Of a stretch of DNA of 64,000 nt, positions 3,857-15,559 are shown piece by piece (the stretch's first letter is position 1; each line of letters opens with the position of its first letter). The notes under the pieces were generated by a model, which was not told the DNA's origin, did not search any database, and saw only the letters and a list, made by a program, of their open reading frames with translations. The position numbers and the translations under genes were made by a program. Origin of the DNA: Planctomycetota bacterium (GTDB lineage: Bacteria > Planctomycetota > UBA1135 > GCA-002686595); contig JAJDET010000376.1 in the NCBI GenBank assembly GCA_029259655.1, forward strand, positions 62,001 through 126,000, written 5' to 3'.

Positions 3857-4363
3857 ATGATCCGCACCCTGATCCTCACGGCGCTGTTCGTCATCTTGGC
3901 CTCGCCGGCTGCGAGCCAGCAGCAAAACACCCCCTCGGGGAGCATGTGGCTCGACGAATGCTGGACGGCGCCCACCTACGGGTGCGCGTTCGTGGGATCA
4001 GGGGCTCCGTACCCGATCTACCATCCCGTCTCGGGGACCAACGGTTGGATCACGCCGGTGATCGGCGGCCAGGGGGCCTACGCCTTCGAGATCTGGGCCG
4101 CGGCCGGCTTGCCGATCTCCGGCAACATCAGCACGCCGATCGGGTCCGTGGACCTCGATCCGAGCACCGCGGTCAGGGCCGTGTGCGGCAGCCTGATAGA
4201 CCCGTGCCTCACCACCGTAGGCTGCTCGTCCCTGGCCCCGTGGATGTTCTCCATCGCGATCCCCTACGTCGCGCCCATCCTGCTCACGACCATGCAGACG
4301 ATCGTCTTCGATCCGGCGGCGCCGACTGGGGCTGTTCTCACAGGGGCCGTGGGAGTAGGGTAG
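3857..4363 (+). CDS. Secreted hypothetical protein
   Basis: 168 residues with a clear Sec signal peptide (MIRTLILTALFVILASPAASQ, cleavage near ASQ). The mature part is Gly/Pro/aromatic-rich with four Cys residues in the centre and ends in a hydrophobic beta-like segment (TTMQTIVFDPAAPTGAVLTGAV). That end resembles C-termini of many host-type secreted beta-sandwich proteins, so it may have been acquired from a host. It is co-transcribed with the lipoprotein 2 nt upstream. Confidence 0.6.
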   Translation: MIRTLILTALFVILASPAASQQQNTPSGSMWLDECWTAPTYGCAFVGSGAPYPIYHPVSGTNGWITPVIGGQGAYAFEIWAAAGLPISGNISTPIGSVDLDPSTAVRAVCGSLIDPCLTTVGCSSLAPWMFSIAIPYVAPILLTTMQTIVFDPAAPTGAVLTGAVGVG

Positions 4364-4368
4364 GGCTA

Positions 4369-4387
4369 TCCCGCTCCGATAGCGGGA
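4369..4387. terminator. Hairpin after the exported-protein pair
   Basis: Seven-bp stem TCCCGCT/AGCGGGA with loop CCGAT, 5 nt after the stop at 4363. There is no T-run, so termination efficiency is uncertain. It lies between convergent genes. Confidence 0.4.
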
Positions 4388-4517: not shown

Positions 4518-4802
4518 TCAGGCGCGGATGGCCATCTTGCGCGGCCGGCCCTTCCGCCGCGGCGCCCAGGCTTTGGCCGCTTCGGGCCTCACGCCGATGC
4601 AGACGATCTTCTGCTTCGCCCCCATGACGTACACCTCGGCGGGCAGGATGCCGGCTTCGATCGCGTTGAGGACGGTCTGCGGATGGGCGTCGTGGAGCTC
4701 GGCGACGGCTGCTGGTGAGAGGAGGGCGGTCCGACCTCGAATGGTCGGTGACGGCCCTGCCAGCGTCTTTTTCAGGCGCTCGGAGTCGCTGATTTCGGTC
4801 AA
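4518..4802 (-). CDS. Helix-turn-helix DNA-binding protein
   Basis: 94 residues from TTG 4802, which has GGGGAG 8 nt upstream; an ATG at 4862 (114 aa) is possible but overlaps the -10 box of the upstream dyad promoter. The centre LLSPAAVAELHDAHPQTVLNAIEAG reads as a helix-turn-helix of excisionase/MerR type, followed by a beta-hairpin wing and a basic tail with an AT-hook-like core (RRKGRPRK). It is paralogous to the protein at 22244-22453. It lies behind a copy of the phage operator, so autoregulation is plausible. Candidate regulator of the dyad regulon. Confidence 0.6.
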   Translation of the reverse strand: MTEISDSERLKKTLAGPSPTIRGRTALLSPAAVAELHDAHPQTVLNAIEAGILPAEVYVMGAKQKIVCIGVRPEAAKAWAPRRKGRPRKMAIRA

Positions 4803-7550: not shown

Positions 7551-7634
7551 CTTGCGGTGCTTGAACGTCGGGCGCCGGTCGATCTGCTCGCAGGTCGATG
7601 CAGGTCCTTTTGGGGGCCACACGTTCGTATGTAG
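7551..7634 (+). other. Inter-tRNA spacer with CACGTTCG
   Basis: 84 nt with GGTCC and GGGGGCC blocks and the octamer CACGTTCG at 7622-7629, which recurs in the split tRNA-like genes. No gene seen. Confidence 0.35.
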
Positions 7635-7880: not shown

Positions 7881-8020
7881 TCGACGGTAGCTCAGTGGTA
7901 GAGCACCTTCCCGCAAGGGATCTCGATCATCCACCAACACGTTCGTTTCGGCGGACCATCGGAAACGATCGTTATTGACTTCCAATCAGGTGGCCGTGGG
8001 TTCAACTCCCACCCGTCGAT
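7881..8020 (+). tRNA. tRNA-Gly-like (TCC) interrupted by a 68-nt insertion
   Basis: A perfect 7-bp acceptor (TCGACGG/CCGTCGA), U73, D arm and T arm enclose an insertion at 7908-7975 inside the 5' anticodon stem. Removing it restores CCTGA-CTTCCAA-TCAGG, a good tRNA-Gly(TCC) arm. A normal tRNA-Gly(TCC) is also present at 8394. The insertion is homologous to the one in the next gene and lies upstream of Ro60, so the unspliced RNA may itself be the functional form (a tRNA-mimicking Y RNA). Confidence 0.6.
7908..7975 (+). other. Insertion element A in the anticodon stem
   Basis: 68 nt beginning TTCCC-GCAA-GGG (tetraloop hairpin), then CACGTTCG at 7938-7945, TTCGG and GGACCA, and ending GATCGTTAT (7967-7975). 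About two-thirds or more identical by eye to element B at 8050-8115. Far too small for a group I or II intron. Confidence 0.6.
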
Positions 8021-8021
8021 T

Positions 8022-8160
8022 TCAGCGGTAGCTCAATTGGTAGAGCGCTTCCCTTCGGGGATCCCGATCACCGGCATCACGTTCGCTTCGGTGGACCACA
8101 CGGAACGATCGTTATTGAAATGTAATCAAGAGGTTGTGGGTTCGAGTCCCACCCGCTGTA
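8022..8160 (+). tRNA. tRNA-like gene (TGT after removal of a 66-nt insertion)
   Basis: Acceptor TCAGCGG/CCGCTGT pairs at six positions (T1-T72 mismatch); D and T arms are good. The insertion at 8050-8115 splits the anticodon stem. Removing it gives CTTGA-AATGTAA-TCAAG, but position 33 would be A, not the near-universal U. It is therefore a doubtful decoding tRNA and a stronger candidate for a tRNA-mimic RNA. Confidence 0.5.
8050..8115 (+). other. Insertion element B in the anticodon stem
   Basis: 66 nt: TTCCC-TTCG-GGG hairpin, CACGTTCG at 8078-8085, TTCGG, GGACCA and GATCGTTAT at 8107-8115. The tetraloop differs from element A (TTCG versus GCAA) while the stem is kept, i.e. the change preserves structure. 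Confidence 0.6.
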
Positions 8161-8314: not shown

Positions 8315-8393
8315 CTTCGATGGACCACTGCACTGAGGGTTACTGAACCTGAAAATCAACACCCCTCGCCGCATCAACACGTTCGTCGGTCTT
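8315..8393 (+). ncRNA. Possible small structured RNA between tRNA-Gly genes
   Basis: 79 nt with GGACCA near the 5' side, a GAGGG...CCCTC pairing and CACGTTCG at 8378-8385, followed by GGTC that can pair with GGACC. It has the same sequence blocks as the split tRNA insertions in a different order and lies 150 bp from the Ro60 gene. Low-confidence Y-RNA-like candidate. Confidence 0.3.
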
Positions 8394-8465
8394 GCTGCAA
8401 TAGCTCAGTCGGTAGAGCAGGTGGTTTCCACCCATCGTGCGGGGGTTCGACTCCCCCTTGCAGCT
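8394..8465 (+). tRNA. tRNA-Gly (TCC)
   Basis: Acceptor GCTGCAA/TTGCAGC, anticodon loop TTTCCAC, U73. Followed by CTTTTT, a possible stop signal. Confidence 0.9.
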
Positions 8466-8541: not shown

Positions 8542-10287
8542 ATGAACATTCGACGGATGACTCGAGACGCCACCGTACCGATCCCGGACTCGCAGCCCTT
8601 GCCGGGCCGTGAGCAGGTCAAGAACCGTACCGGTGGCTACGTGTTCAAGGCGGACCCCTGGGCCACCTACGCCAAGTTCCTTCTGACCGGCACCGACGGC
8701 GGCACGTACTACGCCCGCCAGCCGGAGCTCACGCAGGAGAACGCGGCGCTCGTCTTCGAGCTCCTGAAGATCGACGGCCCGCGGGTCGTCAACGTCGCGG
8801 TCGACTTCGCGGCACAGGGGCGCGCACCGCGCCGGATCGCCATCATGTTCTCCTTGGCCGCAGCCGCGGCGCGGGGCGACGAGGTGACCAAGGCGGCGGT
8901 GTACAGGCGACTGCCGGAGGCGGCGTTCATCCCCACCGACTTCTTCGCGTTCCTGACGGCCTTCAAGGCCCTGGGAACGGGGAAGCTGTCCGGCCGAGGC
9001 ATCATGCGGGCAATCGCTCGCTGGTACTTCGCGAAGGACCCGAGGACCCTTGGGTACCATCTGGCGAAGTACGTGCGGCGGGAGGGCATGACCCACCGCG
9101 ACGCGATCCGCGCCGGCCATCCGTTCCGCGAGCGTGGGCTGGTCCCCATCGAGAGCGAGGCCGCGTACCGCGAGCTCTTCGAGTACGCCACCTTCCAAGA
9201 GGGCTCAGGTTCAGCCGAGCTGCTGACTCAGGAGGGCGGCCGACACACGAACCCGCGCATTCGCTCTGGACCGCCGCGCGTTCTGCAGTTGGCTGCAGAC
9301 GGCGATGTCCCGGAGCAGGACTACCTCCAGCCGATCTGGGCGCGCCACCGGGCGCACTCGGACGACGCGACGACCCCGCAGATCCTGCACCTGATCAAGG
9401 AGCACGGGATCACGCGGGAGATGATCCCGACTCAGTTCCTGAAGGAGGCGAAGGTTTGGGGGGCGCTCCTCGAGCGCATGCCGATCGGCGCAACCATCAG
9501 GAGCCTGGGCCAGATGAGCTCAAGGGGGCTTCTGGCTCGCACCTCTCCTTCGGAGGCGGTGGTCCTGCAGAGGCTGGGAAGCGTCGAGGCGATCCGCAGG
9601 GCGCGCCTCCATCCGCTGAACATCCTCTCGGCGCTGTTCGCCTACAAGGGCGGACGGAGTCAGGCAGGCCAGCAGCGCGGCGCCAAGGCCATCACCTGGG
9701 CCGTGAACCCGAAGATCGTCGACGCGCTCGACGCAGCGTTCTACGCGGCGTTCGAGACGGTGCGGCCGACGGGCAAGCGCATCCTGTGGTCGGTGGACAC
9801 CTCGGGCTCGATGAGGTGCCCGGTGATCGGGATGCAGGGCATCAACTGCACGACCGCAGCGGCGGCTTGGGGCCTCGTCCTGGATCGGACGGAGCCGAAC
9901 GCGATCGCGAGCCAGTTCAACAACACGGCGTCGATGGTCGACATCAGCAGCCGCCGTCGGGTCGACGACGTCGAGAGCTACCTGCGCAAGTTCGGAGGCG
10001 GCACCGCGCTGGCGGCGCCGATCCAGCTGGCGCTCCAAGCGAACGTCGACGTCGACGCGGTCGTGATCCTGTCCGACGAGGAGACCTGGGTCTCCAAGGA
10101 GCAGGTCGCGCCGGCGATGGAGCGGCTCCGCAAGAAGCTCGGTCACCCGGTCAAGCTGGTCGTGGCCGGCCTGGGCGCAACGAACTACACCGTCGTGGAT
10201 CCGGAGGATCCGTGGGGCCTCAACCTCGCGGGCCTCGACTCCGCGGCGCCCTCGCTCGTGAGCGAGTTCATCGCCTTCGAGGCGTGA
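8542..10287 (+). CDS. Ro60-like TROVE/vWA RNA-binding protein
   Basis: 581 residues; ATG preceded by AGGGAG. Residues 1-400 form the HEAT-like TROVE ring, with the family's N-terminal signature (NRTGGYVFKADPW...KFLLTGTDGGTYY). The C-terminal von Willebrand A domain carries an intact MIDAS start DTSGS (419-423) and a TALAAPIQLAL segment. Ro60 proteins bind Y RNAs and misfolded RNAs; in Deinococcus Ro60 is tethered by Y RNA to the exoribonuclease PNPase. Here the gene lies inside the tRNA array, directly downstream of tRNA-like genes with unusual insertions, under a two-operator promoter. This context suggests RNA quality control or tRNA protection during infection. Confidence 0.92.
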   Translation: MNIRRMTRDATVPIPDSQPLPGREQVKNRTGGYVFKADPWATYAKFLLTGTDGGTYYARQPELTQENAALVFELLKIDGPRVVNVAVDFAAQGRAPRRIAIMFSLAAAAARGDEVTKAAVYRRLPEAAFIPTDFFAFLTAFKALGTGKLSGRGIMRAIARWYFAKDPRTLGYHLAKYVRREGMTHRDAIRAGHPFRERGLVPIESEAAYRELFEYATFQEGSGSAELLTQEGGRHTNPRIRSGPPRVLQLAADGDVPEQDYLQPIWARHRAHSDDATTPQILHLIKEHGITREMIPTQFLKEAKVWGALLERMPIGATIRSLGQMSSRGLLARTSPSEAVVLQRLGSVEAIRRARLHPLNILSALFAYKGGRSQAGQQRGAKAITWAVNPKIVDALDAAFYAAFETVRPTGKRILWSVDTSGSMRCPVIGMQGINCTTAAAAWGLVLDRTEPNAIASQFNNTASMVDISSRRRVDDVESYLRKFGGGTALAAPIQLALQANVDVDAVVILSDEETWVSKEQVAPAMERLRKKLGHPVKLVVAGLGATNYTVVDPEDPWGLNLAGLDSAAPSLVSEFIAFEA

Positions 10288-11310: not shown

Positions 11311-11383
11311 GCCACCGTAGCTCAGCTGGCAGAGCGGCGATCTTGTAAGTCGCGGGTCCGGGGTTCGAACCCTCGCGGTGGCA
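11311..11383 (+). tRNA. tRNA-Thr (TGT)
   Basis: Acceptor GCCACCG/CGGTGGC, anticodon loop CTTGTAA with normal U33. A proper Thr(TGT) here makes the split gene at 8022 redundant as a decoder. Confidence 0.92.
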
Positions 11384-11388
11384 TTCAT

Positions 11389-11471
11389 GGAAGGTGAATC
11401 GGGCAGGGCCCGAGCCCGTTTTGAAAGCGGAACGTGCTTCACGGCATGGGGATCGAGACCTCCGCCTTCCG
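11389..11471 (+). tRNA. tRNA-Ser (TGA)
   Basis: Anticodon loop TTTGAAA, long variable arm, acceptor GGAAGGT/GCCTTCC, G73. The T loop (ATCGAGA) departs from TTCGANN. Confidence 0.85.
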
Positions 11472-11532
11472 TCTCAAGTAGCTGTTAGCTCGAGGGCTAA
11501 ATTCAGTCGACGGACTAACAGCAACGCAACAT
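11472..11532 (+). other. Spacer with 8-bp inverted repeat
   Basis: GCTGTTAG (11481-11488) pairs with CTAACAGC (11515-11522). Possibly a processing hairpin between tRNAs. Confidence 0.35.
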
Positions 11533-12013: not shown

Positions 12014-12101
12014 GGAAGGTGAACCGGACAGGCGTGCCGGTCTCGCTTGGAAAGCGATGAGCACCTCGCAAGGGTGTGGGGGTCGGGTCCCCCGCCTTCC
12101 T
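12014..12101 (+). tRNA. tRNA-Ser (GGA)
   Basis: Anticodon loop TTGGAAA, long variable arm, acceptor GGAAGGT/GCCTTCC. The T loop lacks TTC (TCGGGT), so modification may be atypical. Confidence 0.83.
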
Positions 12102-12452: not shown

Positions 12453-12515
12453 TTCAATTGGTAGAACGGTCGGTTCTGATCCGGCATGTTGGGGGTTCGA
12501 GTCCTCCTGCCCCAG
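12443..12515 (+). tRNA. tRNA-Gln (CTG)
   Basis: Acceptor TGGGGCA/TGCCCCA, anticodon loop TTCTGAT, G73. Overlaps the DUF3310 3' end by 10 nt. Confidence 0.92.
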
Positions 12516-12519
12516 TCCT

Positions 12520-12593
12520 CGAGCGGTGGTCCAGTTTGGAAAGACGCTGGCATGGGGAGCCAGAGATCGCGGGTTCGAATCCCGCCCGCTCGA
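12520..12593 (+). tRNA. tRNA-Pro (GGG)
   Basis: C1-G72 acceptor CGAGCGG/CCGCTCG, anticodon loop ATGGGGA, A73. Confidence 0.92.
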
Positions 12594-12594
12594 C

Positions 12595-12623
12595 TTGACA
12601 AGATACGGCGAACGCCGCATAAT
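12595..12623 (+). promoter_or_regulatory. Promoter with dyad operator, abutting tRNA-Val
   Basis: TTGACA (consensus), 17-bp spacer ending in CGGCGAACGCCG, CATAAT at 12618-12623. The tRNA-Val body begins at 12624, before the expected +1, so this promoter cannot make an intact tRNA-Val. It most likely serves the vWA gene at 12723. Confidence 0.7.
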
Positions 12624-12696
12624 GGGCCCGTAACTCAGCGGCCAGAGTGCCCGGTTTACACCCAGGTGGTCGGGGGTTCAAATCCCTCCGGGCCCA
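12624..12696 (+). tRNA. tRNA-Val (TAC)
   Basis: Acceptor GGGCCCG/CGGGCCC, anticodon loop TTTACAC, A73; one C-A mismatch in the anticodon stem. It must be transcribed from upstream. Confidence 0.87.
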
Positions 12697-12722
12697 CTCG
12701 CATCTCCAAGGAGCTTGGATTC

Positions 12723-13451
12723 ATGGGAAAGATAGTGGACGCCCTTCTGGGCGACCGGAAGCCGAAGCAGCGCACGGCAGTGGCGTTGATCGGCGACTCG
12801 AGCATCTCGATGTCGAGTGTTCGGGAGCAAGCGCTCAACGGCTTCAACGATCAGATCGCGGCCATCCGAGCTCGAGCTGACGACGACAACGCCGTCGAGG
12901 CGACGGTCGTCTTCTTCGACTCCCCCGATCGGTACCGCGTCGTGATGGACCGCGTGCCGCACACGAAGCTCGAACCGCTCGCCGAGGGGGAGTACCTGAC
13001 GGACGGGTGCTCCACGGGGCTGGCTCACGCTGTGATCTCGACCGTCGAGCACCTCGTGACCTCCTACGACGAGGCCGACCCCAACCTCGCGTTCCTCGTG
13101 CTCATCATCACCGACGGTAAGGAGAATTGCTCTCCGGAAGGCTACGGCCTCGACGCCCTCAACGCTCTGATCAAGGGCAAGGAGGAGACGGGGAAATGGA
13201 CCTTCGTCTTCGTCGGCTGCGCAATCAACTTCGGGCAGGCCCAGAAGGACATGAACGCCTTCGAGGCCGGCAACACGATGGAGGTCAAGACCAAGGGCGC
13301 CGAAGTCATGAACGCCGCGCTCGGTGCGACGGCCCGGCGCACCGAGGCCTACCTCAGCGTGAGGTCGTGCGGGGTGATGGCGAGCACCAACTTCTACGGC
13401 ACTCCTGAGGGAGAGCATGCGGTGGCCGACGAAGAGTCGTCCGAAGCCTGA
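12723..13451 (+). CDS. von Willebrand factor A domain protein
   Basis: 242 residues; ATG preceded by AAGGAG. Residues 18-200 form a vWA domain: the MIDAS motif reads DSSISM (canonical DxSxS kept), later DGCSTGLAHAV (the conserved Thr position) and LIITDGKENCSPEG. This is the soluble 'VWA-type' fold used for metal-dependent protein binding and found in phage and stress-response proteins. It is driven by its own dyad promoter and lies in the same tRNA array as the vWA-containing Ro60, so the two may share a regulon. Substrate unknown. Confidence 0.85.
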   Translation: MGKIVDALLGDRKPKQRTAVALIGDSSISMSSVREQALNGFNDQIAAIRARADDDNAVEATVVFFDSPDRYRVVMDRVPHTKLEPLAEGEYLTDGCSTGLAHAVISTVEHLVTSYDEADPNLAFLVLIITDGKENCSPEGYGLDALNALIKGKEETGKWTFVFVGCAINFGQAQKDMNAFEAGNTMEVKTKGAEVMNAALGATARRTEAYLSVRSCGVMASTNFYGTPEGEHAVADEESSEA

Positions 13452-15400: not shown

Positions 15401-15474
15401 GGACCCGTAGCTCAAAAGGACAGAGTAGCGGTTTCCTAAACCGAAGGTTGGAGGTTCGATCCCTCCCGGGTTCA
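15401..15474 (+). tRNA. tRNA-Arg (CCT)
   Basis: Acceptor GGACCCG/CGGGTTC, anticodon loop TTCCTAA, A73. Confidence 0.9.
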
Positions 15475-15485
15475 TCGGTCTACCA

Positions 15486-15559
15486 ACGACCACGTTCGGC
15501 GAGGGGCGTACCCTCGTTCGGACCACGTGGCGGATCGTTATCGTCAACGATGAGGTCGT
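15486..15559 (+). ncRNA. Free-standing homologue of the tRNA insertion elements
   Basis: 74 nt closed by ACGACC/GGTCGT. It contains CACGTTCG (15491-15498), TTCGG, GACCA and GATCGTTAT (15533-15541) in the same order as elements A and B, with an additional GAGGG/CCCTC hairpin between the first two blocks. A candidate Y-RNA-like molecule or a mobile structured element. No experimental class can be assigned. Confidence 0.45.

Follow-up and report, generated by a model that had tools for sequence, protein, structure and literature searches.

Putative Y RNAs shaped as open-acceptor tRNAs, with a predicted Ro60-binding arm in the anticodon stem, beside a phage Ro60 gene

What kind of RNA is encoded by two adjacent tRNA-like genes whose anticodon stems are each split by an insert far shorter than a bacterial group I intron? 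The two genes, termed A and B, lie in a window of 64,000 nt taken from a 157-kb Planctomycetota contig, C308, whose phage genes include those for portal, sheath, tape measure and baseplate. The contig has 37 called tRNAs and one tmRNA (ARAGORN, Rfam), and A and B sit between tRNA-Ala and tRNA-Asp. The contigs used here are metagenomic and the E-values are rough. Based on the evidence below, A and B are very probably Y RNAs, predicted to partner the Ro60 protein whose gene follows directly downstream. Each consists of a tRNA cloverleaf whose anticodon stem takes up an additional arm between nucleotides 28 and 29 (Table 1).

Table 1. Coordinates and parts of the features discussed, numbered from the first nucleotide of the window
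Feature	Position	Strand	Parts	Basis
RNA A, putative tRNA-shaped Y RNA	7881..8020	+	acceptor 7881-7887/8013-8019; D arm 7890-7904; anticodon nt 27-28 = 7906-7907, nt 29-43 = 7976-7990; T arm 7996-8012; discriminator U8020	sequence, RNAalifold, tRNA-plus-insert search, pair-change comparison
Insert A, 68 nt	7908..7975	+	P1 hairpin 7909-7920 (GCAA loop); P2 7924-7928/7967-7971; P2b 7930-7932/7961-7963; P3 7941-7946/7951-7956, UUCG-closed, then UUAU	RNAalifold consensus, R1 model
RNA B, putative tRNA-shaped Y RNA, paralogue of A	8022..8160	+	acceptor 8022-8028/8153-8159; D arm 8031-8046; anticodon nt 27-28 = 8048-8049, nt 29-43 = 8116-8130, no U33; T arm 8136-8152; last nt A8160	sequence, Rfam, RNAalifold, pair changes
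Insert B, 66 nt	8050..8115	+	P1 8050-8061 (UUCG loop); P2 8065-8069/8107-8111; P2b 8071-8073/8101-8103; P3 8081-8086/8091-8096, UUCG-closed, then UUAU	RNAalifold, R1 model, pair-change comparison
Probable small Y RNA, usual topology	8318..8388	+	paired ends CGAUGGAC 8318-8325 / GUUCGUCG 8381-8388	fold, pattern, R2
Ro60/Rsr homologue, presumed protein partner	8542..10287	+		Pfam, PDB match
Third Ro60-stem module copy	15475..15552	+		R1, fold

The original prediction described acceptor, D and T arms in both genes, interrupted by inserts of 68 and 66 nt, and these are present in the sequence. The acceptor of A has 7 bp (TCGACGG/CCGTCGA) and that of B has six pairs and a U-U at 1:72. Also as predicted, excision of the insert restores a perfect Gly UCC arm in A (CCUGA-CUUCCAA-UCAGG) and gives an arm without U33 in B (CUUGA-AAUGUAA-UCAAG). 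An ordinary tRNA has an uninterrupted anticodon arm with U33, from which both genes depart by the insertion at 28/29 and B by the missing U33 as well. In the ARAGORN output, A is wrongly folded into a tRNA-Gly at 7948-8020 and B is not called; the Rfam tRNA model detects B only (46 bits). Both programs also miss two tRNA-Ser-like sequences with unusual T loops (no UUC) at 11386-11475 and 12014-12101. A normal tRNA-Gly(UCC) at 8394 and a normal tRNA-Thr(UGU) at 11311 (ARAGORN) already serve the codons concerned, which had been held to favour a non-decoding role; the genes are indeed there but are a weak argument for such a role.

RNAalifold, applied to a structural alignment of A and B, gave the fold adopted here, in which P1 is UCCC-[GCAA or UUCG]-GGGA, P2 is CGAUC:GAUCG and P3 is GUUCGY-UUCG-GYGGAC. 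The elements that had been noticed as common to both inserts, namely the P1 hairpin with its exchanged loop, CACGTTCG, TTCGG, GGACCA and GATCGTTAT, were all found. Five double-compensatory pair changes separate A from B, two in the acceptor, one at 28:42 and two in P2b, while two one-sided changes remain paired and one change breaks pairing. Hence A and B are conserved folded RNAs, and the compensatory changes, with two in the acceptor, fit with each gene folding on itself. The minimum free energy fold of A was rejected as the true fold: it pairs P2/P3 differently, and in B a C-A mismatch interrupts that pairing. An RNA model trained on A and B only (R1) scores them at 107 and 100.7 bits against 17.3 for the runner-up in the window (15456-15552), indicating that the pattern is not due to chance. 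That they are functionless tRNA genes in decay, broken up by spacer DNA, is extremely unlikely: the absence of U33 and of pair 1:72 in B and the partial third copy in a spacer would suit decay, but the compensatory changes, the strict conservation of the inserts and the recurrence of the design beside other Ro60 genes do not.

The same pair changes bear on where each RNA begins and ends. The RNA could instead run from P3 of A to P3 of B, with a closed acceptor hairpin made from the 3' half of A and the 5' half of B, so that the separate genes would be an illusion created by a tandem array. Tandem Y RNAs are read in this way at many loci (R3 matches in which the P3 loop contains long gaps), the alignment to the Rfam YrlA model spans the A/B junction, and P2 and P3 pair equally well between the two genes. 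Within A and B, however, 7/7 and 6/7 acceptor pairs form, two of them differing by double-compensatory changes, whereas the cross acceptor has five Watson-Crick pairs, one G-U and a mismatch, and its innermost pair leaves a 2-nt loop. Further, only a 4-nt UUCG loop without any spacer lies between the P3 ends, full P2b and 28:42 pairing is obtained only inside each gene, and isolated, non-tandem copies exist elsewhere (for example at loci L145, L166 and L181). A permuted RNA spanning A and B is thus very unlikely.

The case for Y RNAs begins with the inserts. In 14 named phage Ro60 loci, the intergenic DNA upstream of Ro60 was inspected, and the Y RNAs found there follow the pattern 5'-P3-GNC-CGR-N9-11-UCGGUUAYC ... 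CCGG-N11-13-CAC-P3'. A, B and the third copy have GGAC-CA ... GAUCGUUAU and CGRUC ... CAC-GUUC in the places that match this signature. In predicted fold and in register, the inserts resemble the Y RNAs upstream of phage Ro60 genes, with a helix, an asymmetric loop, a second helix and the (G)GUUAU signature, although the independent model R3 (below) matches them weakly; they most likely represent a Ro60-binding module, predicted to consist of P2, the asymmetric internal loop and P3. The GNCGAA-type Ro60 motif of Y RNAs is absent from A and B, where a degenerate GGACCA stands in its place, and GUUAU is found instead of the usual GGUUAU.

The presumed partner is an intact gene 382 nt downstream of A and B on the same strand. 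Its product has TROVE and Ro60 vWA domains (Pfam) and matches Xenopus Ro60 (1yvp, E 1.8e-77) and D. radiodurans Rsr (2nvo) in the PDB. K176, R180 and H193 of the phage protein align with K170, R174 and H187 of Xenopus Ro, residues important for Y-RNA binding. A single-sequence scan found no close relatives of this Ro60 in viral or genome contigs. A second vWA protein is encoded near Ro60, with a TerF-like domain and a gene at 12486-13448 within the tRNA array.

Two further elements in the window resemble parts of this system. A probable small Y RNA of the usual topology lies just upstream of the Ro60 gene; its ends pair and it contains an internal GGUUAC. R2, a model trained on 24 phage Y RNAs with the P3-GNC-CGR signature, matches it weakly at 8319-8387, over its full length and in register (10.9 bits, E 0.83 in 10.8 kb). 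The third copy of the Ro60-stem module occupies the spacer directly 3' of tRNA-Arg(CCU), with an extended, closed P3 and no D or T arm of its own. R1 detects it with an E-value of 0.03 over the window (15456-15552) and 0.005 over the tRNA array without filters. A fifth CACGTTCG lies at 7620-7627 in the spacer before tRNA-Met, with no GGACCA partner.

R2 finds Y RNAs at many other Ro60 loci. About 110 further copies at E<=1 were detected in 80 IMG/VR viral Ro60 loci, all on the Ro60 strand, and 76 copies at E<=0.01 in 80 bacterial Ro60 loci. Ro60 loci often contain tandem arrays of several Y RNAs (for example L121, L094 and L093), in which adjacent P3 strands are able to pair over the junction. 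Several actinophage Y RNAs keep an anticodon hairpin in the body (for example AUUGCAA in Sparky and Dandelion). A GenBank tRNA-Thr(tgt) of prophage prophiGD43A-5 (L050:1762-1840) overlaps a permuted Y RNA and is likely a misannotation. In the window, matches of R2 and of R3, a model trained on permuted phage Y RNAs, are not significant by themselves; R3 matches A and B weakly and in exact register (B 7.5 bits, E 3.4; A 6.0 bits, E 9.8). The Rfam YrlA model (RF02553) scores A and B at 33.7 and 32.3 bits against a cut-off of 69, with the tRNA parts only aligned. DNA-pattern searches of IMG/VR for the insert returned one chance match within a coding region, and relatives of the portal protein had no tRNAs nearby and no R1 match.

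A script requiring a 7-bp acceptor, a D arm and a T arm with a long insert between them was applied to all collected Ro60 loci. It returned 56 candidates in 3.8 Mb of strand sequence, with A and B counted twice as locus L054 repeats them, and most candidates contain GGUUAY. Reversed sequence gave 0 candidates, and at loci without Ro60 (953 kb of strand sequence) slightly looser rules found none. The 47 candidates retained include a few chains wrongly fusing two genes (for example L142 904-1083 and L181 6950-7148), and the true count besides A and B is ~40 genes at 26 other Ro60 loci, usually <1 kb from Ro60. These open-acceptor genes occur on phage contigs (L073, L090, L123) and in bacteria, including Gemmatimonadetes (L139), Sorangium (L181/L209), Polyangium (L156/L157) and loci L154 and L163. 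In these genes P3 usually forms a short-looped hairpin (3-8 nt in the loop) between CUUG and GGGCCGAAGG-like bases, and the position of the GNCGAA-type motif reads GGGCCGAAGG.

The attachment point is equally consistent. Among the 47 candidates, joining the tRNA parts restores 27-28:42-43 pairing in 36, against a mean of 12 and a maximum of 21 in 1000 shuffles, and cutting after nucleotide 28 gives the most perfect anticodon stems. The original prediction had proposed a covariance-model search for the insertion in other phages. In two independent 0.8-Mb sets, the best R1 matches are open-acceptor genes beside Ro60, with E-values of 0.012 for L090 in one set and of 0.0037, 0.046 and 0.072 for L139, L163 and L178 in the other. 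R3 matches open-acceptor inserts significantly (Sorangium L187, E 1.4e-6; L181, 3.3e-6; L168, 4.2e-6). L139:4312-4397 is matched by R1 as well as by R3 (E 0.0012), and is on this evidence the predicted bridge between A and B and the wider Y-RNA family. The assignment of A and B as Y RNAs therefore draws on signature, synteny and this bridging locus, with models from other phages matching them weakly.

Individual loci show further variation. At L139:4307-4421 the D arm is apparently replaced by a hairpin (CUGCCC-CGAAA-GGGCAG) while the acceptor and T arm are intact. The phage locus L090 (IMG/VR; 3972-4380 and 4594-4746) carries Ro60-stem inserts in three or more tRNA genes, probably four, none of which are called by ARAGORN. 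Their restored anticodons include Arg UCU and UGA, and one Leu-like gene has its insert after the anticodon loop.

The original prediction left two options, a new type of micro-intron or Y RNAs. The first would see the inserts spliced out to leave a working tRNA-Gly(UCC) and a tRNA-Thr-like molecule, perhaps freeing a Ro60-binding hairpin. The perfect arm of A after excision is in keeping with this, as are its Gly-type U73, C2:G71 and G3:C70, the restoration of all five anticodon-stem pairs in 20 of the 47 similar genes (cut after nucleotide 28), where position 33 is usually U and position 37 a purine, and an RtcB ligase encoded on a host contig. Splicing machinery is another matter: no tRNA-splicing endonuclease (PF01974, tRNA_int_endo) was found in the 91%-complete genome that includes the phage contig, by a search that was positive in archaeal controls. 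The inserts match no group I family in Rfam and are far below the > ~200 nt of such introns. Searches of Rfam and of the genome gave no evidence for group I or bulge-helix-bulge introns. Moreover, B could not decode after splicing as it has no U33, and the conserved P1 hairpins of A and B are not equally far from the junction, the two distances being 1 nt apart. The 5-bp anticodon stem is also able to form while the insert branches off its side, hence restoration of the arm needs no splicing. Micro-introns are therefore unlikely, whereas the Y-RNA option is well supported by the signature and by the recurrence of the tRNA-plus-insert layout beside Ro60.

A further point against reading these RNAs as Y RNAs is that the recurrent genes often retain U33 and a purine at 37, for which an RNA that only binds Ro60 would have no use. 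Open-acceptor genes might instead be working tRNAs, with Ro60 and a ligase such as RtcB switching between a Y RNA and a decoding tRNA, although this is quite improbable. If true, a Ro60-binding micro-intron at 28/29 would give bacteria and phages a tRNA splicing switch that is neither of group I nor dependent on an endonuclease.

If A and B act as Y RNAs, the transcript of the tRNA array would be cut at their acceptor ends by RNase P and RNase Z, and CCA added. Ro60 would then clamp the P2/P3 arm, which would not be removed, leaving the tRNA-shaped body as the effector end, as in other Ro60-Y RNPs. The body may tether PNPase or serve as a tRNA decoy for tRNA-acting enzymes, including anticodon nucleases. 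A role as an anticodon-nuclease inhibitor would suit phage RNAs with varied, intact anticodon hairpins. Competitive inhibition of such a nuclease is a proposed role (PMC7790460), and in a phage proteogenomic study Rsr and Y RNAs were suspected to belong to the highly transcribed phage loci (PMC12282133).

With their ordinary tRNA ends, open-acceptor RNAs could be processed, CCA-tailed and even charged like tRNAs, something that a closed-acceptor YrlA would be unable to undergo. Neither tRNA finders nor Rfam detect the class, which lies unannotated beside Ro60; many phages and bacteria, isolates of Sorangium and Polyangium among them, hence have mis-annotated or un-annotated Ro60 RNPs. No earlier description of open-acceptor Y RNAs was found in the open literature, a search that did not extend to the founding YrlA papers.

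Several known systems share parts of this design. In tRNA-scaffold constructs, a foreign RNA replaces or extends the tRNA anticodon arm and thereby gains tRNA-like processing and stability. These resemble A and B in layout but are artificial, whereas A and B are natural and recurrent. Small Y RNAs without a tRNA body (YrlB-like, as probably at 8318-8388) have both strands of the Ro60-stem module but no cloverleaf. Archaeal and algal disrupted or permuted tRNA genes likewise have tRNA halves split by extra sequence, but are described as needing bulge-helix-bulge sites and a splicing endonuclease (PMC3978253); no such endonuclease was found in the genome here. The Y RNAs of the actinophages Dandelion, Myrna, Sparky and Cashline and of prophiGD43A-5 arrange P3, GNC motif, asymmetric loop, P2 and (G)GUUAU in the order seen in A and B, and several have a full anticodon arm with the Ro60 stem joined at 28/29. 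They differ in having a permuted topology or no tRNA body, and lie closer to the GNCGAA-type motif.

Another known system close to A and B is YrlA (Y RNA-like A, Rfam RF02553; Chen et al. 2014 RNA 20:1715, as cited in PMC8394870 and PMC7790460). Its 5' and 3' ends are described as pairing into the Ro60 stem, followed by a tRNA-like body for which PNPase binding and modification by tRNA enzymes are reported (PMC8394870). In the Rfam alignments the consensus order is T arm, closed acceptor, D arm, hence the YrlA body is a circularly permuted tRNA entered via the anticodon stem. Like A and B, YrlA is linked to Ro60/Rsr and has a Ro60 stem, predicted in A and B, on a body with D, T and acceptor arms, joined via the anticodon stem. 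In YrlA, however, the ends of the Ro60 stem are open and the acceptor is closed by a loop, whereas in A and B the acceptor is open and the Ro60 arm is closed by UUCG. A and B further differ in their intact anticodon hairpin, their P1 hairpin and their scores far under the RF02553 cut-off. They lack the permuted order of YrlA, and the compensatory changes back the opposite topology. The position of the Ro60 arm (28/29) appears to be the same in the inspected permuted YrlAs and the open-acceptor genes. This suggests a tRNA with a fixed attachment point in which only the location of the ends varies, so that one can test directly whether YrlA arose from a tRNA-Y fusion through circular permutation. 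A and B are thus the predicted un-permuted counterpart of YrlA, with the attachment point kept and the opposite end open.
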